Below are positions 17,487 through 26,121 of a DNA stretch of 46,443 nucleotides, piece after piece (position 1 is the stretch's first letter; each line of letters opens with the position of its first letter). The stretch spans positions 1 to 46,443 of the forward strand of contig NZ_JADNQZ010000037.1 in assembly GCF_015709515.1 (NCBI RefSeq). The letters run 5' to 3'. A program made the position numbers and the translations under genes. The DNA comes from Methylocystis sp. H62. GTDB taxonomy: Bacteria; Pseudomonadota; Alphaproteobacteria; Rhizobiales; Beijerinckiaceae. The notes below the pieces were generated by a model, which had not been told where the DNA came from, did not search any database, and was given only the letters and a program-made list of their open reading frames with translations.

Positions 17487-17900
17487 TCGCCCGCCCCGAT
17501 TGTCAGGCCAACTGGTGATCGCTCACAATTTGACCGGGCTCGACAGGCCGTAATGGCGATGGGGATTTGCGTAAGTATTGGGGTGCGCCACGATTAGGTG
17601 AGACATGCGATGCGCTAATTCGAAAACCGCAACCGGGTTAAAAATGACGAAAGACGCAAGGGCTTAACGCGGGAACGAGTCGCTCGCGAAGGACGCGCCC
17701 AAAGAGATACGCCGGAGACATCGCTCCTTTCAAGCAAATTGCGAATTTTTTCAGCGTGCGGCGCCGCATTCATGTCCACTCGGCACCGTCCGGCAGGCCT
17801 TCTTGGGCGAATCGCTCATGGGCCGTTTCGACCAGAACCCCAAAGAATCGTGGTCCCTCGTCGCTATTCGCCTGAAGTGGCACAACTACTTCGCTGTAGG

Positions 17901-17916
17901 TGGCGCCCGGATTGCA
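17901..17916 (+). promoter_or_regulatory. Sigma-54 type promoter upstream of outer-membrane gene
   Basis: TGGCGCCCGGATTGCA has the GG-N10-GC spacing of the -24/-12 RpoN promoter (consensus TGGCAC-N5-TTGC). It lies 36 bases before the first leader hairpin, an arrangement repeated at 21149-21164. Confidence 0.6.
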
Positions 17917-17950
17917 TCCATTCATTCGAAGGCGTCGTTCGCGACGTCAA

Positions 17951-17982
17951 GGTCCACAGAGGGGCCCCCAGCATCGCCGCTG
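17951..17982 (+). promoter_or_regulatory. ANTAR (NasT-type) antitermination RNA, two hexaloop hairpins
   Basis: Hairpin P1: ggtcc-ACAGAG-gggcc (17951-17966). Hairpin P2: cagc-ATCGCC-gctg (17969-17982). Both hexanucleotide loops have A at position 1 and G at position 4, the signature bound by ANTAR-domain antiterminators such as NasT/NasR. The two hairpins are 2 nt apart. The 3' arm of P2 is also the start of the terminator stem, so P2 and the terminator exclude each other. The same design precedes nrtA at 21204. Confidence 0.7.
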
Positions 17983-18027
17983 TCCTGAACGTCTGCTGCG
18001 CAGACATTCAGGCAGCGGTTTTTTTTT
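17979..18027 (+). terminator. Leader terminator (attenuator) of outer-membrane gene
   Basis: Stem 17979-17995 (gctg-t-cctgaa-c-gtctg) pairs with 18001-18016 (cagac-a-ttcagg-cagc) around the loop ctgcg, followed by nine T from 18019. It ends 41 bases before the ATG at 18069, so it acts inside the leader rather than after an upstream gene. Confidence 0.85.
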
Positions 18028-18068
18028 GTTTCCGACGCCGTGCAGGCGAGACGCACTCGAGGTTCGCG

Positions 18069-19310
18069 ATGAAGAAAGCACAGTTTCGAGGACGGACGCA
18101 TCGGCGCCGTCTAGGCCGCGACGCGTTTGCGACGAGCATGGCGGCCGCCGTCATCATGGGGACTGGCGCAAGTGCCGCGGCCAGCGCGAAGGCTTCCGCC
18201 AAGGCGACTTCGGTTCAACCGCAAGTCGCGGCGCCGACAGCCGCGGCGCCGGCCGCGCCGCCTCCGCCGCCACCGGCGCCCATGGGAGTATTTGGCGCCG
18301 ATATGCCGGCCGCCGGCAAACTCGTTCTCTCGATTACGCCCGTCTTCGCCAATCTGTCGGGCATCAAAATGGGAACCCGCACGGTCTCAAACGAATATAT
18401 CGTCACGACGGTCCCGTTCTTTCTCAATCCGAGGCAAACCGTCCGCATCATCCCGCAAAACATCGCGATCGCGACGCAAATTGTCGGCCTCAGCTACGGG
18501 GTCACGAAAGATTTCGCAGTGGTTCTCACGGCCGGCATGATCGAGAAGAATCTCAACGCGCTAACCTTCAAGGGCGCGTCGGGAATTCTGCCGCTGGGCA
18601 GGAGTTTGCCGGGAACGACAAGCCTTGCCGACGTCACTTTGTCGGGCGTCTATCGCATCTATCAAGACGACGTCCACCGCATTCAGCTCTCTCTTGGCTT
18701 CTCCTTCCCCGCCGGCAGCTATACCGCCACCTTCAAGGACTTTCTCCTGCCCGATGGAACCCGCCGCAACGTCCGGGCGTTTTATGGCATGCAGCCCGGC
18801 ACGGGCACGTTCGATTTCCTCCCCGGCGTCATCTATGCAGGCTATCTAGGACCGTGGTCGTGGGGCCTCGGCTATCGCGGGCGCTTCCCGCTGGCCGCAA
18901 ATTCACTGGGCTATTCCGGGGACTACCTGCTCGAATATCGCCTGCGCTTCCCGCTCGGCCCCACTCCTACGGGGGGCTACCGCTGGGGCGATTTGCATGA
19001 ATTCAACGCCTGGGGCGGCTACACCTGGACGCCCGGACTCACCACCACCTTCCGCGTGAGCGGTTCGACGCAGGGCCCGATTCGCGGCTTCGATCCGGAA
19101 ATCCGCGGCCCGGCCGTGCCCGCCAATCCGGCCTTTTACGGCGGGCAGCGGGTCGAGCTCTTCGGCGGCGCGACGATCAGCGGCAAATTTATCGGCTATG
19201 ACAATGCGACGGTCGCGGTCGAGGCCGGTCTGCCCGTCTATCAGAATCTCAACGGTCCGCAGATTATGAAAAACTGGCAGGCGGGCATGTCGCTGCGGTT
19301 CAAAATCTAA
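18069..19310 (+). CDS. Outer-membrane transporter-like protein (Phenol_MetA_deg type)
   Basis: A 413-residue exported protein. From the ATG at 18069 (gagg upstream) it has a basic N-terminus and a signal-like segment (FATSMAAAVIMGTGASAAASAKA), an Ala/Pro-rich linker (AAPAAPPPPPPAP), then a beta-rich domain of alternating aromatic strands (GYLGPWSWGLGYRGRFPL...YLLEYRLRFPLGP...) ending in the aromatic/basic MSLRFKI. This is the pattern of the MetA-pathway/transporter outer-membrane family. The substrate is not evident. Its leader carries a sigma-54 promoter and a NasT-type antitermination RNA, and the nitrate uptake genes follow, so a role in nitrate or nitrite passage is inferred. Confidence 0.75.
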   Translation: MKKAQFRGRTHRRRLGRDAFATSMAAAVIMGTGASAAASAKASAKATSVQPQVAAPTAAAPAAPPPPPPAPMGVFGADMPAAGKLVLSITPVFANLSGIKMGTRTVSNEYIVTTVPFFLNPRQTVRIIPQNIAIATQIVGLSYGVTKDFAVVLTAGMIEKNLNALTFKGASGILPLGRSLPGTTSLADVTLSGVYRIYQDDVHRIQLSLGFSFPAGSYTATFKDFLLPDGTRRNVRAFYGMQPGTGTFDFLPGVIYAGYLGPWSWGLGYRGRFPLAANSLGYSGDYLLEYRLRFPLGPTPTGGYRWGDLHEFNAWGGYTWTPGLTTTFRVSGSTQGPIRGFDPEIRGPAVPANPAFYGGQRVELFGGATISGKFIGYDNATVAVEAGLPVYQNLNGPQIMKNWQAGMSLRFKI

Positions 19311-19381
19311 ACGTGCTCGTCTACTCCATAGGGAATAGCCGCTTTTTGCCGTCGCATCAACCGAAGCTGAGGATGTTCGCG

Positions 19382-19606: not shown

Positions 19607-19703
19607 AACCGAAAGCGGCGCCTTCCGCCGCGCTGCGCGGTCCGTAAAACAATCACGCATTCACCCCTCATACGCTACTAGGGACTCCGCTGCGCGCCAG
19701 AGC

Positions 19704-19874
19704 TTGAAGATCGTTGTCGTCGATGAAAGTCCGATCCGCGCGGGCTGCTGATGAAAGCAAGGGCTTCTCCGAGGAGAAGCCCTATCGGCTGATGCGCACG
19801 GCGGCAATGTGGGAAAACAAGAAATCGCCGGAATCGCGCGGGCGATCATCTCGGCGGCGGAGCTCCTCAAATGA
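19704..19874 (+). pseudogene. nasT: nasT remnant (ANTAR antiterminator), internally deleted
   Basis: NasT is a receiver-like plus ANTAR protein that binds leader hairpins and prevents termination of nitrate genes. Here only the first residues (LKIVVVDESPIRAG) and the ANTAR end remain: FSEEKPYRLMRTAAM in one frame, then, after loss of one A in the run at about 19820, IARAIISAAELLK and stop at 19872-19874. About 130 codons are missing between them. The stop overlaps the nasS start as ATGA, as expected for a nasT-nasS pair. The product cannot work. Confidence 0.8.
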
Positions 19875-21084
19875 CCGGCGCCATGAAGCGCTTGCGGATC
19901 GGCTTCATGCCGCTTGTCGACGCTGCGGCGCTCGTCGTCGCCGTCGACGGCGGCTTTGCGGCCGACGAAGGTCTCGATATCGAGTTGGTGCGGGAAGTCT
20001 ACTGGTGGAACATTCGAGACAAGTTGGCCATCGGCCTTTTTGACGCCGCCCATTTGCTTGCGCCTTTGGCGATCGGATCGAGCATGGGCCTCGGCCAGGT
20101 CAAGGCGCCGTTCGTCGCGCCGATGAACTCGGCGATGAACGGCAACGCCATCACTGTCTGCGGTGCGCTGTACGAGGAGTTGCTGGCCGCCGACGGCGAT
20201 CTACTCAACCCGGCGTCGAGCGCGCGCGCTGGCCGCCGCCGTTCGCGTCCGCGAGGCGCAAGGGCGCGAGCTGCTCACCTTTGCGATGACCTTTCCGTTT
20301 TCGACCCATAATTATCAGCTGCGTTATTGGATGACCGCTGGCGGCGTCGATCCGGATCAGGATCTAAGGCTCGTGACGCTGCCGCCTCCCTTTATGGTCG
20401 AGTCGATGGCGCAGGGGCAGGTAGACGGGGATTCTGCGTCGGCGCGCCATGGAGCTCCGGCGCCGTCGAGGCCGGCGTGGGCCGCATCCTGCATTTCGGT
20501 TGCGATATTTTTGGCCGCGCGCCAGAGAAGGTGCTGGCGCTCAGCGCGCGCGACATTGAAGCCGCGCCCGACGTCGCGCAACGCTCACGGGAGCCATCGC
20601 AACGGCGGCGTGTTATATGGAAGAGTCCAGAGGGCGCCAGGAAATCGCGGCGATGTTGGCGCGGCCCGACCGCGTCAGCGTTGACGCGCGTCTTATCCAG
20701 CGGACGCTCGTTGGCGAACTCAAGATCGTCGCAAACGAGACCCGCGCTAACCCGAATTACCTCATCCTCGGCGAGGCGGCGCGCTGCGGCCCGACGCGGC
20801 GCATGCGATATGGCTTTACGCGCAATTGCAGCGCTGGGGGGACAAGCGGATTCGTCCATGGAGCGCGTCGAAGAGGCGACGCGCGTTTTCCGAGCTGATC
20901 TCTTCGACGCCGCGATCGGAGACGACGCGCCCGGCGCAGCCGCTTTGGCGATCCGGTCGGCGCTTTCGACGCGTCCCCTCCCGTTGACAATTTGCGCGCT
21001 TATCTTGCGGCTTCTCGATCGGCCGAAAGCTTTAGCGTTTCCCCAATCAACGCACACCGTGACGGCACAGTGCCGCTTGTTTGA
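19871..21084 (+). pseudogene. nasS: nasS remnant (nitrate sensor), multiply frameshifted
   Basis: NasS is a cytoplasmic NrtA-like protein that senses nitrate/nitrite and holds NasT inactive. The match starts with MKRLRIGFMPLVDAAALVVAVDGGFAADEGL and KLAIGLFDAAHLLAPLAIGSSMGLG, then passes through other frames: FAMTFPFSTHNYQLRYWMTAGGVDP; GVGRILHFGCDIFGRAPEKVLAL; EIAAMLARPDRVSVDARLIQR; SSMERVEEATRVFRADLFDAAIG; and finally VDNLRAYLAASRSAESF, ending at 21084. I count at least five frame changes (near 20215, 20430, 20590, 20785 and 20945). No signal peptide, as for NasS. Confidence 0.8.
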
Positions 21085-21148: not shown

Positions 21149-21164
21149 TGGCACCTGACTTGCA
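21149..21164 (+). promoter_or_regulatory. Sigma-54 promoter of nrt operon
   Basis: TGGCACCTGACTTGCA matches the RpoN consensus TGGCAC-N5-TTGCA exactly. It lies 40 bases before the P1 hairpin of the leader. It implies nitrogen control through an NtrC-type activator; I did not find a convincing activator site. Confidence 0.75.
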
Positions 21165-21203
21165 AAGATGAGGGGGAATCGCCGGACACCCCTCCCCGGC
21201 CAC

Positions 21204-21239
21204 GCGACCCAATGACGGGACGCATCAGCAACGCCGCTG
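21204..21239 (+). promoter_or_regulatory. ANTAR (NasT-type) antitermination RNA in nrtA leader
   Basis: P1 is a 7-bp stem with one A-A mismatch around loop AATGAC (21204-21223). P2 is cagc-AACGCC-gctg (21226-21239). Both loops are six bases with A1 and G4, separated by 2 nt. P2 differs by one base from P2 of the leader at 17969. The P2 loop and 3' arm overlap the 5' arm of the terminator that follows. Confidence 0.75.
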
Positions 21240-21291
21240 TTCCGAGAGACAAGCGCAATTGCGCGACGCTCCCGGCAAGCGGCTTTTTTTT
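21233..21291 (+). terminator. Leader terminator (attenuator) of nrt operon
   Basis: gccgct (21233-21238) pairs with agcggc (21278-21283); inside, ttccgagag pairs with ctcccggca with two mismatches, and gcgcaattgcgc forms an inner hairpin. Eight T follow (21284-21291). It ends 31 bases before the nrtA ATG, so it must be bypassed for expression. Confidence 0.8.
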
Positions 21292-21322
21292 ATTCGCTCT
21301 GCGACAAATGACGAGGACCAAA

Positions 21323-22633
21323 ATGGGCAACGACAAAGCCGACGTTTCGCGCCAGCCGGCGATCAATCGACGCGACACACTGAAAGGCGCGGTGGCGACA
21401 TTGGCCGCGGCGAAGTCCCTATTGCCTTGTGGCGCCTTTGCGCAAAACGCTGGCCCCGAGACCACTAAAGCGGCCCTTGGCTACATCGCGCTCACCGATT
21501 CAGCGCCGCTGATTATCGCCAAGGAAAGAGGCCTCTTCGCCAAGCACGGCTTGCCGGACGTCGAAGTGCTGAAACAGGCGTCCTGGGGCGCGACGCGCGA
21601 CAATCTCGTCCTGGGCGGCGCCAATAATGGCATTGACGGCGCGCATATCCTGACGCCGATGCCCTATCTCATCACGACCGGCAAGGTGACGCAGAATAAT
21701 GCGCCGACGCCGATGTATATTCTCGCGCGGCTCAATCTCGATTGCCAGGGAATATCGGTCGCTAACGAATATAAGGACCTCAAGGCCACCGCCAAAGCCG
21801 ACGCGCTAAAAGCGGCTTTCGCGAAGAAGAAAGCCGAAGGCAAGGAGGTGAAGGTCGCCATGACCTTCCCGGGCGGGACGCATGATTTGTGGCTCCGCTA
21901 TTGGCTCGCCGCCGCGGGAATTGATCCCGACAAGGACGTCTCGACGATCGTTGTTCCGCCGCCCCAGATGGTCGCGAATATGAAGGTCGGCAATATGGAC
22001 GCCTTCTGCGTCGGCGAACCGTGGAACGAGCAGCTCGTCAACCAGGGAATCGGCTACACCGCGTGCGCCACTGGCGAAATCTGGGCGAAACATCCCGAAA
22101 AGGCGCTCGGCATGCGCGCCGATTGGGTTGACAAAAATCCCAAAGCCGCGATCGCGCTGACCGCCGCCGTCCTGGAGGCTCAGCAGTGGTGCGACAAGAA
22201 CGAAAACAAAGCCGAGCTCGCCGAGATTGTCGGCCGTCGTCAGTGGTTCAACGTGCCGACGACAGACATCATCGGTCGGCTCAAAGGCGACATCAATTAT
22301 GGAAACGGCCGAGTCGAAAAGGGAACAAAGCAGCTCATGAAGTTCTGGCGCGATCACGCGTCATATCCCTTCAAGAGCCATGACGCCTGGTTCATCGTCG
22401 AAGACATGCGCTGGGGCAAGCTCGATTCCAAGACAGACGTCAAGGCTCTCGTCGACAAGGTCAACCGCGAGGACCTGTGGCGCACGGCCGCCAAATCGAT
22501 CAGCGTCCCGGCGAAGGACATTCCCGCCTCGACCTCGCGCGGCAAGGAAACCTTCTTCGACGGCAAGGTCTTTGATCCCGATCAGCCGCTCGCCTATCTC
22601 AAGAGCCTCGCCATCAAGCGGGCCGAAGTTTGA
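21323..22633 (+). CDS. nrtA: Nitrate ABC transporter substrate-binding protein
   Basis: Periplasmic nitrate-binding protein of the NrtA/CmpA family, 436 residues. The start ATG at 21323 has gagg 9-12 bases upstream. A twin-arginine-like signal is present (INRRDTLKGAVATLAAAKSLLPCGAFAQ), then the mature domain: ALGYIALTDSAPLIIAKERGLFAKHGL, GATRDNLVLGGANNGIDGAHILTPMPYL, VAMTFPGGTHDLWLRYWLAAAGIDPDKD, CVGEPWNEQLV and HPEKALGMRADWVDKNPKAAIALT, all typical of NrtA. Intact, unlike its cytoplasmic paralogue nasS upstream. The first gene of an operon with nrtB, the ATPase and an MFS gene. Confidence 0.92.
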   Translation: MGNDKADVSRQPAINRRDTLKGAVATLAAAKSLLPCGAFAQNAGPETTKAALGYIALTDSAPLIIAKERGLFAKHGLPDVEVLKQASWGATRDNLVLGGANNGIDGAHILTPMPYLITTGKVTQNNAPTPMYILARLNLDCQGISVANEYKDLKATAKADALKAAFAKKKAEGKEVKVAMTFPGGTHDLWLRYWLAAAGIDPDKDVSTIVVPPPQMVANMKVGNMDAFCVGEPWNEQLVNQGIGYTACATGEIWAKHPEKALGMRADWVDKNPKAAIALTAAVLEAQQWCDKNENKAELAEIVGRRQWFNVPTTDIIGRLKGDINYGNGRVEKGTKQLMKFWRDHASYPFKSHDAWFIVEDMRWGKLDSKTDVKALVDKVNREDLWRTAAKSISVPAKDIPASTSRGKETFFDGKVFDPDQPLAYLKSLAIKRAEV

Positions 22634-22653
22634 ATTCGACGCGCGAGGCCAAC

Positions 22654-23541
22654 ATGACGATGCCATTGACGAAGAACGCAATCTCGGCGAGCCCGCTCGA
22701 CGACGCCGACGAAATCTTTCGTCGACACCGCACGCCGCTCGCGGTCAAATATCGAACGCAGATTCGCGCCTTTTTCGCTGCAACCTTGCCGCCCATAATC
22801 ACGTGCGCCGTGATCCTCCTGGTCTGGCAGATCATATGCGCGCGGCCCAATTCGGCGCTGCCGTCGCCCGCGCGCATCTGGACCGAGGCTAATGATCTCA
22901 TCCTGCATCCATTCTTCGTCAATGGTCCGCAGGACATAGGGCTCGGCTGGCGCGTGTTGACGTCGCTTCAGCGCGTCGCTGTCGGCTTCGGGCTGGCGAG
23001 CGTCGCGGGCGTGATCGTCGGCGCCTTCGTCGGACAAGCGCAATGGGCGGCGCGCGGCCTCGATCCGATCTTTCAGGTCTTGCGCACGGTGCCGCCGCTC
23101 GCCTGGCTGCCGATCTCGCTCGCCGCCTTTGGCGACAGTCGACCGTCGGCGATCTTCGTGATCTTCATTACCGCGATCTGGCCGATCATCATCAATACCT
23201 CCGTCGGAGTGCGAAACATTCCGCAGGACTATCGCAACGTCGCCGCCGTGCTTCGGCTCAACGCGCTCGAGTTCTTTTACTGCATCGTCGCGCCAAGTGC
23301 CGCCCCTTACATTTTCACCGGACTACGCATCGGGGTCGGGCTTTCCTGGCTCGCAATCGTCGCAGCGGAGATGCTCACCGGCGGCGTCGGCATCGGCTTT
23401 TTCATCTGGGACGCCTGGAATTCCTCACGCCTGCCAGACATTTTCGTTGCGCTGCTCTACATCGGCCTCACCGGCTTCTTTCTGGATCGACTCATCGGCT
23501 TCATCGGCGCGTTGGTGACGGGCGGCGCGCAGCCGAACTAG
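22654..23541 (+). CDS. nrtB: Nitrate ABC transporter permease
   Basis: Inner-membrane permease, 295 residues, of the SsuC/TauC/NrtB family. An N-terminal cytoplasmic arm is followed by about six transmembrane helices and the EAA loop region (VAAVLRLNALEFFYCIVAPSAAPYIFTGLRIGVGLSWLAIVAAEML). I chose the ATG at 22654 (gagg upstream, MTMPLTKN); a TTG overlapping the nrtA stop would add eight residues. 20 bases after nrtA and 10 before the ATPase gene, so clearly one operon. Confidence 0.9.
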   Translation: MTMPLTKNAISASPLDDADEIFRRHRTPLAVKYRTQIRAFFAATLPPIITCAVILLVWQIICARPNSALPSPARIWTEANDLILHPFFVNGPQDIGLGWRVLTSLQRVAVGFGLASVAGVIVGAFVGQAQWAARGLDPIFQVLRTVPPLAWLPISLAAFGDSRPSAIFVIFITAIWPIIINTSVGVRNIPQDYRNVAAVLRLNALEFFYCIVAPSAAPYIFTGLRIGVGLSWLAIVAAEMLTGGVGIGFFIWDAWNSSRLPDIFVALLYIGLTGFFLDRLIGFIGALVTGGAQPN

Positions 23542-23551
23542 GGAGGTCAAC

Positions 23552-24346
23552 ATGTCAAGTTTTCTTAAGATCGAAAACGTCGACAAGATCTTTACGCACG
23601 GCTCCGCGACGACGAAGGTCTTGGAGAACATCAATTTGCGAGTGGAGAAAGGGCAATTTGTCTCCATCATCGGCCATTCTGGCTGCGGCAAATCCACGCT
23701 GCTTAACATTGTCGCTGGCCTTCTGACGGCGACGAGCGGCGGCGTCATTCTCGAGGAGCGGGAAGTCAACGAACCGGGTCCCGACCGCGCAGTGGTCTTT
23801 CAGAACCACTCGCTGCTTCCCTGGCTTTCGTCCTATGACAATGTACGACTCGCCGTCAATAAAGTGTTCCGCAAGACCGAGACTCGCGTCAAGCGGCATG
23901 AGCGCACGATGCGAATGCTTGACCTCGTGCAGATGACGCACGCAAAAGATAAGCGCCCCGGCGAAATATCGGGCGGCATGAAGCAGCGAGTCGGCATTGC
24001 GCGCGCCCTTGCGATGGAGCCGAAAGTCCTGTTGCTCGATGAGCCATTTGGAGCGCTCGACGCGCTGACGCGCGCACATCTGCAGGATCAGGTCATGGCG
24101 CTGCAGGCGAAGCTTGGCGCCACCGTGATAATGATCACCCACGACGTCGACGAGGCCGTGCTGCTCTCGGACCGTATCGTGATGATGACGAACGGGCCGC
24201 GCGCGACGATCGGCGAAGTTCTGCCAGTCCCGCTGCCGCGTCCACGCGACCGCATCCAGCTTGCCGTCGATCCAATCTATCTCGAATGCCGGCGACGAGT
24301 GCTGCAATTTCTTTATGAGCGCCACAGCTACATCGAAGCGGCGTAA
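23552..24346 (+). CDS. nrtD: Nitrate ABC transporter ATP-binding protein
   Basis: A 264-residue ABC ATPase that drives nitrate import. Walker A GHSGCGKSTLL at about residues 44-54, Q-loop VFQNHSLLPWLS, signature ISGGMKQRVGIARAL, Walker B VLLLDEPFGALD, and switch histidine in MITHDVDEAVLLSDR. agggagg lies just before the ATG. It is a single ATPase of the NrtD type without the NrtA-like C-terminal extension of cyanobacterial NrtC, so the pump would use a homodimer. Confidence 0.92.
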   Translation: MSSFLKIENVDKIFTHGSATTKVLENINLRVEKGQFVSIIGHSGCGKSTLLNIVAGLLTATSGGVILEEREVNEPGPDRAVVFQNHSLLPWLSSYDNVRLAVNKVFRKTETRVKRHERTMRMLDLVQMTHAKDKRPGEISGGMKQRVGIARALAMEPKVLLLDEPFGALDALTRAHLQDQVMALQAKLGATVIMITHDVDEAVLLSDRIVMMTNGPRATIGEVLPVPLPRPRDRIQLAVDPIYLECRRRVLQFLYERHSYIEAA

Positions 24347-24387: not shown

Positions 24388-26121
24388 GTGAGCCACTTTA
24401 TGCCGGCGATATCCATTGCCCATCGCGATTTCTTGTCTCGCGAGCGAACCGTCGCTTCACCCGCGTTCAATCGCTGGCTCGTGCCGCCGGCGGCGCTCGC
24501 CATTCATCTCTGCATCGGCATGGCCTATGGCTTTTCCGTCTTCTGGCTGCCGCTGTCGCGGATCATTGGCGGCGCGCAGCCGAAGGAATGCGCAGAAACG
24601 CTCGGTCTTTTCGCGACGCTCGTCGCCACCGACTGCGACTGGAAGATCAGCTGGCTGGGCTGGACGTTCACGCTGTTCTTCGTATTTCTGGGCTCCTCGG
24701 CGGCGGTCTTCGGCCATTGGCTGGAGACGGCCGGCCCCCGCAAGGCCGGACTCGCGGCGGCCTGCTGCTGGTGCGGCGGCCTGCTGATCTCGGCGCTCGG
24801 CGTCTATCTCCATCAGATCTCTTTGCTGTGGATCGGCTCCGGCGTGATCGGCGGCATTGGTCTCGGGCTTGGATACATCTCGCCGGTCTCGACGCTCATC
24901 AAATGGTTCCCGGACCGGCGCGGCCTCGCGACCGGTCTCGCCATCATGGGTTTTGGCGGCGGCGCGATGATCGGCGCGCCGCTCGCCGATCGGCTGATGG
25001 GCTTCTATGCGACGCCGGCTTCGCCCGGCGTCTGGCAGACCTTCGTCACGCTCGCCGCGATTTATTTCGCTTTCATGGTCGCCGGCGCGCTCAGCTACCG
25101 GGTGCCGCCCGAGGGTTGGGCGCCGGAAGGCTTCACGCCGCCCGCGGCGGCCAAGAACGCCATGGTGACGCATCGCCATGTGCATCTCGACGTCGCATGG
25201 AAGACGCCGCAATTCTGGCTGCTCTGGGCCGTGCTCTGTCTCAACGTCTCCGCCGGCATCGGCGTTCTGGGCATGGCCTCGCCGATGCTGCAGGAAGTTT
25301 TCGGCGGCAGACTGATCGGTCTGGACATCGGTTTTGATCAGCTCGCCCCCGATCAGAAAAAGCAGATCGCGGCGATCGCGGCGGGCTTCACCGGCCTGTT
25401 GAGCCTGTGCAACATCGGCGGGCGCATCGGCTGGGCCTCGGCGTCCGATACATTCGGCCGCAAGGTCACCTACGCGATCTTTTTTATCGTCGGCATCGCG
25501 CTTTATTCCGCCGAACCCTTCGCGGCGAAGGGCGGCATGGTCGGCCTCTTCGTCCTGCTCTTCGCCGTCATCATCACCATGTATGGCGGCGGCTTCGCGA
25601 CGATTCCCGCCTATCTCGCCGACATCTTCGGCACGCATCATGTCGGCGCCATCCATGGCCGGCTGCTGACCGCCTGGTCGACGGCGGGCGTGCTCGGACC
25701 GGTGCTGGTCAATTACATTCGCGAATATCAGCTTGCGCACGGCGCGCCGCGCGAAGACGCCTATAATCAGACCATGTATGTGCTCGCGGGCCTGCTGCTC
25801 TGCGGTCTCGTCTGCAATCTGCTGGTGCGGCCCTGCGCCGAGAAATATTACATGAGCGATGAAGAGGTCGCGGCGCAAAAGCACATCACGGTCGCCGAGG
25901 TCGTCAAGGAAGATGACGAGGTCCACGCCGACTTCGAGGATTTTGTCGAAGAGGCGCTGGAGCCGGCTGCGACCGACTCCGCTCCGCCGATCGCCGCGCG
26001 CGCGCCGCCCGGCTCAAAGGGCGGATCGCTGCTGCTGGTTTTCGCCTGGGCCGCCGTCGGCATCCCCCTCGCCTGGGGCGTCTGGATGACGCTTCTTAAG
26101 ACAGCAGCGCTGTTTCGATAG
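24388..26121 (+). CDS. MFS transporter of the oxalate/formate antiporter (OFA) family
   Basis: A 577-residue inner-membrane protein with about 12 helices. GIGLGLGYISPVSTLIKWFPDRRGLATGLAIMGFGGGA is the characteristic OFA-family segment in the N half, and NIGGRIGWASASDTFGRKVTY the matching loop in the C half. An acidic cytoplasmic stretch (EEVAAQKHITVAEVVKEDDEVHADFEDFVEE) precedes a last helix. The start is a GTG at 24388 or an ATG at 24400. 41 bases after the ATPase gene, so likely in the nrt operon. The substrate is not shown by sequence; an anion such as formate, oxalate, nitrite or nitrate is possible. Downstream sequence is IS debris. Confidence 0.85.
   Translation: MSHFMPAISIAHRDFLSRERTVASPAFNRWLVPPAALAIHLCIGMAYGFSVFWLPLSRIIGGAQPKECAETLGLFATLVATDCDWKISWLGWTFTLFFVFLGSSAAVFGHWLETAGPRKAGLAAACCWCGGLLISALGVYLHQISLLWIGSGVIGGIGLGLGYISPVSTLIKWFPDRRGLATGLAIMGFGGGAMIGAPLADRLMGFYATPASPGVWQTFVTLAAIYFAFMVAGALSYRVPPEGWAPEGFTPPAAAKNAMVTHRHVHLDVAWKTPQFWLLWAVLCLNVSAGIGVLGMASPMLQEVFGGRLIGLDIGFDQLAPDQKKQIAAIAAGFTGLLSLCNIGGRIGWASASDTFGRKVTYAIFFIVGIALYSAEPFAAKGGMVGLFVLLFAVIITMYGGGFATIPAYLADIFGTHHVGAIHGRLLTAWSTAGVLGPVLVNYIREYQLAHGAPREDAYNQTMYVLAGLLLCGLVCNLLVRPCAEKYYMSDEEVAAQKHITVAEVVKEDDEVHADFEDFVEEALEPAATDSAPPIAARAPPGSKGGSLLLVFAWAAVGIPLAWGVWMTLLKTAALFR

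Follow-up and report, generated by a model that had tools for sequence, protein, structure and literature searches.

Positions 17901-18027 of the window (the whole 46,443-nucleotide stretch of Methylocystis sp. H62 DNA analysed here) very probably comprise a promoter of the sigma-54 type and, behind it, a transcription antitermination leader of the ANTAR kind that responds to NasT, as judged from sequence. We regard it as roughly an even question whether the protein encoded directly downstream lets more nitrate or nitrite into the cell as an outer-membrane channel. The observations cover the sequence elements, their predicted folding and covariation, how many such sites there are and where, gene order and conservation; from them we infer NasT binding, the nitrate response, autoregulation, the barrel fold and the substrate.

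In the proposed mechanism, NasS would hold NasT when neither nitrate nor nitrite is present, the terminator would form, and RNA polymerase would stop before the gene. When nitrate or nitrite is present, free NasT would bind the loops of two hairpins, P1 and P2, on the nascent RNA. Because the 3' arm of P2 is also part of the terminator, the terminator could not form once NasT holds P2, and the gene would be transcribed. The nrtABC genes and a paralogue-nasT-nasS gene run would be co-expressed through the same switch and, where the switch stands ahead of nasT, NasT would amplify its own synthesis. The outer-membrane channel would then raise nitrate/nitrite entry to the periplasm for NrtABC and a NarK-like carrier.

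The broader reading, to which we give somewhat less than an even chance, is that Methylocystis-type methanotrophs have a dedicated nitrate-inducible outer-membrane nitrate/nitrite channel, encoded by the first gene of an assimilation run whose leader also controls nasT. This arrangement would give positive feedback by antitermination and possibly all-or-none nitrate use. The channel gene, promoter and leader would form one cassette, as suggested by an orphan copy that persists and by a relative's leaderless copy that lies with nitrate/nitrite carriers. General porins are usually regarded as the way by which nitrate and nitrite pass the outer membrane; a Methylocystis cell may make a dedicated outer-membrane door for these ions only when needed. 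A NasT-controlled outer-membrane gene heading a run with an inner-membrane carrier and reductases would make a specific outer-membrane route testable in methane oxidisers, and nasT behind its own switch predicts autoregulation.

Leader anatomy, folding and covariation

All of the leader elements named in the first-pass annotation (the promoter motif, P1, P2, a terminator with nine T and an ATG 41 bases further on) are present as read (Table 1). The promoter motif has correctly spaced GG and GC elements at -24/-12, and one sigma-54 gene was found in the genome. A -24/-12 motif occurs 12-43 nt 5' of P1 in 36/36 rows of our pattern search, which is not independent evidence because the search demanded such a motif. 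The best NtrC-type enhancer site within 500 nt upstream of the window promoter scored 7/12, no better than the shuffled maxima, and no such site above the shuffled level was found within 500 nt of this promoter or of the three other promoters scanned.

Downstream of the promoter, the window leader contains two adjacent small hairpins with A1/G4 hexaloops, separated by a spacer of 2 nt. As had been noted, P2 differs by a single base from the P2 of the nrtA leader (CAGC-AACGCC-GCTG). The arms of the terminator are CCGCTG (17977-17982) and CAGCGG (18013-18018), and its T9 (18019-18027) ends 41 bases before the ATG. The hairpins had also been described as "again 2 nt apart", which holds for the window leader and, in the nrtA leader, only if the inner stem is extended over an A.A mismatch. 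The exact promoter-to-P1 spacings given earlier, 36 and 40 bases, did not stand, although they were only a few bases off: between the 16-nt promoter motif and the base at which P1 pairing starts we count 34 nt in the window leader and 43 in the nrtA leader, the latter to a 3-bp inner stem, or 39 nt if the P1 stem is extended across the mismatch. The window leader has one more element that the first-pass annotation does not mention, a 7-bp hairpin at 17931-17948, 5' of P1; a similar hairpin is also readable at this place in the leader of a paralogue on contig C56.

The full window leader is predicted to fold into the terminator form (-49.9 kcal/mol, z = -5.59; 0/200 shuffles were as stable). 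With a transcript start at 17928 assumed, P2 is absent from the full-length fold, and retaining it costs 10.3 kcal/mol relative to the terminator fold; P1 and P2 are both intact in the predicted folds of truncated transcripts ending at 17989, 17996 and 18010. By predicted folding, the overlapping terminator and P2 are mutually exclusive. Because P2 forms in the truncated transcripts and gives way to the terminator in the full leader, this predicted geometry fits a switch decided during transcription.

Table 1. Features of the window discussed in the text (all on the forward strand)
Feature	Position	Strand	Basis or remark
Sigma-54 (-24/-12) promoter motif TGGCGC-CCGGA-TTGCA	17901..17916	+	sequence reading
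Extra 7-bp hairpin with TTCG (UUCG) loop, 5' of P1	17931..17948	+	predicted fold
Match to leader covariance model R1	17943..18028	+	77.0 bits, E 1.1e-16; leader itself among the 26 of R1
ANTAR hairpin P1, GGTCC-ACAGAG-GGGCC, hexaloop ACAGAG (A1, G4)	17951..17966	+	sequence, fold
ANTAR hairpin P2 (antiterminator), CAGC-ATCGCC-GCTG, hexaloop ATCGCC (A1, G4)	17969..17982	+	sequence, fold
Intrinsic terminator with T9, 5' arm overlapping P2	17977..18027	+	sequence, fold, covariation
Gene for 413-aa probable outer-membrane protein	18069..19310	+	signal-peptide-like N-terminus, Pro-rich linker, distant PF13557 relative
Decayed nasT (fragments 19695-19871) and nasS (19871-20919; stop, frame changes)	19695..20919	+	receiver and ANTAR fragments
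-24/-12 motif of nrtA, TGGCAC-N5-TTGCA	21149..21164	+	sequence
Second leader, 5' of nrtA	21198..21292	+	R1 74.1 bits, E 6.4e-16; among the 26 of R1
nrtA-nrtB-nrtC, nitrate ABC transporter genes	21323..24346	+	TIGR01183 (nrtB) and TIGR01184 (nrtC) above cut-off; PF13379 (nrtA); nrtA start from sequence reading

With both strands searched, the window contains a single instance of two A1/G4 hairpins with an overlapping terminator, and 0/100 dinucleotide shuffles of it contain one. This strict pattern misses the nrtA leader because its terminator arm differs. No Rfam family matched at gathering scores across the whole window or at E <= 1 in 17850-18100, so that the identity of the leader rests on its anatomy and on a covariance model, R1, constructed from 26 leaders (34 were cut out, and near-copies were dropped). 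Note that these leaders were gathered by a pattern requiring loops with A1/G4 and, in P2, a CAGC/GCTG stem, and thus their uniformity in both respects is no evidence. Compensatory changes are found in P1 and the terminator among the 26 leaders and in the P2 stem among leaders of other families (see below). In the 26, 11/20 pairs show a double change (shuffled mean 7.5; 3/500 shuffles as high), and 45 double-changed cells are observed versus 16.1 in shuffles that ignore relatedness (0/500 as high); register-slid controls contain 4-7 pairs with a double change. The P1 helix contributes 3/5 pairs changed on both sides, with 96.8% of its cells paired, and the terminator helix 8/15.

When R1 is run on the 4.54-Mb genome, with 150 of 5411 first-look candidates scored, it gives three strong matches of 77.0, 75.9 and 74.1 bits (E <= 6.4e-16), followed by a fourth at E = 0.78. 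These three scores are partly high by construction, because all three leaders are among the 26; the gap to the fourth match and the matches in other families are free of this effect.

The NasT regulon and the distribution of the leader

The three strong leaders precede the window gene, its 86%-identical paralogue on contig C56, and nrtABC in the window. The earlier proposal of a single regulon is supported in that the genome yielded one ANTAR protein and each of the three leaders is located at nitrate genes, the location expected of an ANTAR/NasT leader. This protein is the NasT encoded on C56, which has response-regulator and ANTAR domains. No other ANTAR gene was found in the genome, so that this NasT most likely acts on each of the three leaders, its own included, and the presence of a leader ahead of nasT implies positive autoregulation.

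The C56 run comprises, on one strand, the paralogue, nasT, nasS, nirB-like, nirA, cysJ-like, nasC-like and narK-like genes, with the paralogue and nasT, as listed, one base apart. NasS belongs to the NMT1-like family, the nirB-like product is an FAD/NAD reductase, and a NirA-family nitrite reductase and a CysJ-like flavoprotein follow. The molybdopterin reductase scores 398.6 bits with the NasC model and 476.3 bits with that of formate dehydrogenase alpha, both below the cut-offs, and the NarK-family carrier scores 231 bits versus a cut-off of 311.7. The 327-nt gap between nasS and the nirB-like gene contains no R1 match; a single transcript over the whole run is therefore uncertain, and its second half may start separately.

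Relatives of the protein are present in 35/61 genomes of the genome set. A copy was considered eligible when it had at least 350 bases upstream and at least 800 downstream; 7 copies that were too weak or lay too near a contig end were not counted. The remaining 55 copies, drawn from the window and loci L032-L091 with a G001 fragment at a contig end excluded, are divided into 26 with both a leader and nasT downstream, 3 with a leader only, 1 with nasT only and 25 with neither. In other words, the leader is found in 26/27 copies with nasT downstream versus 3/28 without it. The leader-only copies are the window copy, L050 and L078, a broken copy in genome G005. The nasT-only copy, L090, is the downstream half of a gene whose two parts lie about 1.6 kb apart; the upstream half, with the leader, is counted among the 26. 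At this locus (G035:C26, 3408-6049) the nasT-linked copy is split with the leader still ahead; the same genome also has the L045 copy described below.

In a second, named set, 37 eligible copies (8 set aside) include 1 with both, 2 with the leader only, both from Methylosinus, and 34 with neither. This set left out duplicates of the genome set (L092-L123 except L107, L110 and L111; L132, L133, L141 and L156) and the too-short L152. For both sets, leaders were assigned by running R1 over 99 of the loci. Conservation of the leader upstream of orthologues, the check suggested in the first-pass annotation, is thus seen for copies linked to nasT and not for the family at large. We reject the idea that the leader marks every family member, since leader and nasT are both missing from 25/55 copies of the genome set and from 34/37 of the named set. 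Nor does the protein tree support the idea that the leader arose once: 6 changes are needed, at least 5 of them forced by starred branches, on a tree that used 63/70 rows and for which the program warned of long branches.

Within the genus, an ANTAR protein is encoded in 31/39 genomes, and 31/31 of these have a leader match at E < 1e-10; in G001, where nasT lies at a contig start, this match is of a weaker class only. At E <= 0.01, with 108 candidates scored per genome, R1 matches in 34/39 genomes, the match in G003 (E 0.007, 24 bits) probably being noise. Two drafts, G010 (97% complete, 270 contigs) and G011 (59% complete), have a strong leader and no ANTAR match. Some Methylocystis have two leaders, one before the outer-membrane gene, nasT and nasS and the other before nrtA or nir genes, and the runs of the outer-membrane gene with nasT occur in several gene orders. 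Two genomes, G025 and G062, have two and three ANTAR matches, respectively, and five R1 matches each, one of which per genome is weak and on the opposite strand; these appear to be enlarged NasT systems.

The weaker leader class consists of seven loci (L214-L220, in G029, G013, G026, G023, G017, G032 and G001), with T at P1 loop position 1 in all seven and the P2 loop AAAGCC in six; no R1 match in the window's genome belongs to it. In the window, an oxalate/formate-antiporter-like MFS gene (24388-26121), for which all NCBIfam full-length models score below cut-off, lies directly 3' of nrtABC. An MFS gene 87-94% identical to it is found downstream of the weaker leader in 4/7 loci, and in the other 3/7 the 4.1-4.9 kb examined contain no MFS match. 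Given this position before its relatives, the window MFS gene may encode a NasT-regulon transporter.

In a sample of the order containing 297 genomes, including the window's genome and G009, R1 matches were found in 48, using stricter filters and 14 scored candidates per genome. We read the 28 loci obtained from other genomes, all in other families (L230-L257), over about 1.5 kb on each side. The nasS gene lies directly upstream of the match in 27/28 and was not found upstream within this distance in L247; downstream are nrtA (18), a NarK-type carrier (6), a NasS/NrtA-like binding protein (3) and a contig end (1). A further match, L264 (G256), also falls between nasS and a binding-protein gene. 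The outer-membrane gene is present in 0/28 loci within the same range, and the position of the leader before this gene and nasT was seen in Methylocystis and Methylosinus only, among the genomes examined.

As for the loops, 29 leaders from other families, none of them used for R1, have A1/G4 in P1 in 27/29, in P2 in 24/29 and in both in 22/29, and in six the P2 stem is changed on both sides, from CAGC/GCTG to CGGC/GCCG or AGGC/GCCG. Among 24 further genus leaders (three sources of which had served for R1), A1/G4 is found in P1 in 15/24 and in P2 in 23/24. Position 1 of the P1 loop is T in the seven leaders of the weaker class and G in the second leaders of L049 and L064, and one P2 loop starts with G. 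A1/G4 is not universal among leaders.

Because its matches fall in the gap between nasS and nrtA or narK, with A1/G4 mostly kept, R1 finds NasT leaders. It is accordingly very improbable that the hairpins in the window are a plain attenuator or a leftover terminator outside NasT control. Such an element could have a terminator that is strong on its own, as this one is in the predicted fold, but it would not be expected to share a model with leaders in that canonical gap, to show a covarying P2 stem, or to have a counterpart in all 31 ANTAR-bearing genomes of the genus.

The outer-membrane protein and the history of the window copy

The 413-aa protein begins with a hydrophobic Ala-rich stretch, followed by the Pro-rich linker, and its conserved part ends YQNLNGPQ...WQAGMSLRFKI. 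The C-terminus is of an alternating hydrophobic type, which we take to be the expected look of an outer-membrane barrel. No Pfam or NCBIfam model matches the protein at E <= 0.001, searches of PHROGs and PDB sequences gave nothing significant, with no solved relative at E <= 1, and PF13557 has no direct match in the protein or in 29 aligned relatives even at E <= 1. PF13557 is reached through intermediates: a profile of distant relatives (A4) reaches PF13557 proteins, some of which are named 'transporter'. The earlier description of the gene as outer-membrane transporter-like is therefore supported by remote homology, and the barrel reading rests on distant relatives, since the protein has no Pfam match of its own and no solved relative at E <= 1. 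From these data and the gene context we infer a barrel fold and nitrate/nitrite passage.

Among the 120 matches listed, 14/15 named relatives carry the NCBI label 'alpha-amylase', with no supporting domain in the 30 scanned. We reject this label because Pfam and NCBIfam show no such domain. A role is now suggested for proteins labelled 'alpha-amylase' or 'hypothetical'.

The nitrate link of the protein would rest on gene context, namely the nasT-linked runs and the neighbourhood of L045. At this locus (G035:C77, 932-7494), a leaderless copy with 82% identity lies beside genes for NnrS, a Crp/Fnr-type regulator and a 918-aa protein made up of two NarK-family halves; the sequence surrounding the start codon of the copy is kept despite the missing leader. 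The suggestion that nitrate or nitrite may pass the outer membrane through this protein is plausible and appears strengthened by this context. A more distant relative (46% identity) in an unclassified proteobacterium (L124, 7001-12357) is convergent with genes for a NorQ/CbbQ-type ATPase and a COX1-family protein, possibly NorB.

It is also quite conceivable, if short of an even chance, that the NasT switch is functional and the protein has a role other than nitrate/nitrite passage, for example an envelope- or metal-related one or the export of nitrite or a small molecule, and merely shares the regulon. Part of the leaderless genus relatives lie in neighbourhoods that look unrelated to nitrate (ORF lists, by eye), the Met-rich consensus of distant relatives may hint that the wider family handles metals, and a literature search on the PF13557 family returned no title on nitrate. 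However, the leader-bearing copies of the genome set nearly all adjoin nasT, in several gene orders, and the L045 copy, which has no leader, is again found with nitrate/nitrite genes.

In the window, decayed nasT and nasS lie between the outer-membrane gene and nrtABC; intact nasTS genes are on C56. The DNA at 17889-19313 is 94.5% identical to a nasT-linked copy in G017, and that at 17891-19316 is 86% identical to the genome's own copy on C56. The G017 match extends from 12 bases upstream of the promoter motif to 3 bases beyond the stop codon. In the blastn pieces found, the nasT and nasS remnants are 68-72% identical to relatives. The gene itself is under purifying selection (dN/dS 0.18-0.23 versus seven relatives). 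The G017 match spans promoter, leader and gene, the gene is under purifying selection, and nasTS has decayed; the three thus appear to form a single cassette that has persisted after the decay of its nasTS. The window copy may stem from a G017-like relative by import, or from gene conversion.

As an orphan beside decayed nasT and nasS, this copy may be surplus. We consider it unlikely, at perhaps a minor share of the probability, that a unit of outer-membrane gene, nasT and nasS was once duplicated or imported and that this copy is what is left of it, redundant or dying, with leader and gene only passively kept. Such a remnant would explain the decayed neighbours and the greater similarity of gene and leader to the G017 copy than to the genome's own, and it has a parallel in L078, a broken second copy in G005 with an intact leader. 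Set against this are a gene that is open over 413 codons and constrained in sequence, and a leader that still scores 77.0 bits, next to remnants of only 68-72% identity. The intact state is not decisive, since a recent import would also look intact.

Comparison with known systems

In Paracoccus denitrificans (PMC3795266, PMC5424462), nitrate releases NasT from NasS, and NasT binds the nasA leader RNA. The Methylocystis system resembles this one in having NasS, an ANTAR-domain NasT, and hairpins with a terminator before nitrate assimilation genes. The leaders found in the order between nasS and nrtA- or narK-type genes occupy the same place as the studied Paracoccus leader, between nasTS and nasA (PMC5424462). 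The Paracoccus leader lies 3' of nasTS and controls nasABGHC, with nasTS as a separate unit, whereas in Methylocystis the leader lies 5' of the outer-membrane gene, nasT and nasS. Thus, unlike in Paracoccus, nasT is behind the leader and a probable outer-membrane gene comes first.

The leader is also like the ANTAR dual-hairpin leaders (EutV/eutP, NasR/nasF, AmiR; PMC3369931): two hexaloop hairpins with A1/G4, a terminator over P2, and nitrogen-related targets. It differs from those leaders by standing before a gene for a probable outer-membrane protein; the main text of that paper contains neither 'outer membrane' nor 'porin'. A gene described as coding for an outer-membrane protein, blr1311 of B. 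diazoefficiens, is listed as up, not down, in a nasT mutant, which weighs against the proposed reading. As for the PF13557 (Phenol_MetA_deg) 'transporter' family, distant homologues of the window protein carry the domain, and the window protein itself has no match.

The mechanism and the RNA, as an ANTAR/NasT leader type, are known already. As had been surmised, no outer-membrane protein of this family was found described as a NasT target in the literature searched; within that literature, an outer-membrane protein as NasT target and the placement of nasT behind such a leader are new. By its sequence, the element would be an ordinary NasT leader; what is unusual is its target and its place, ahead of nasT itself.
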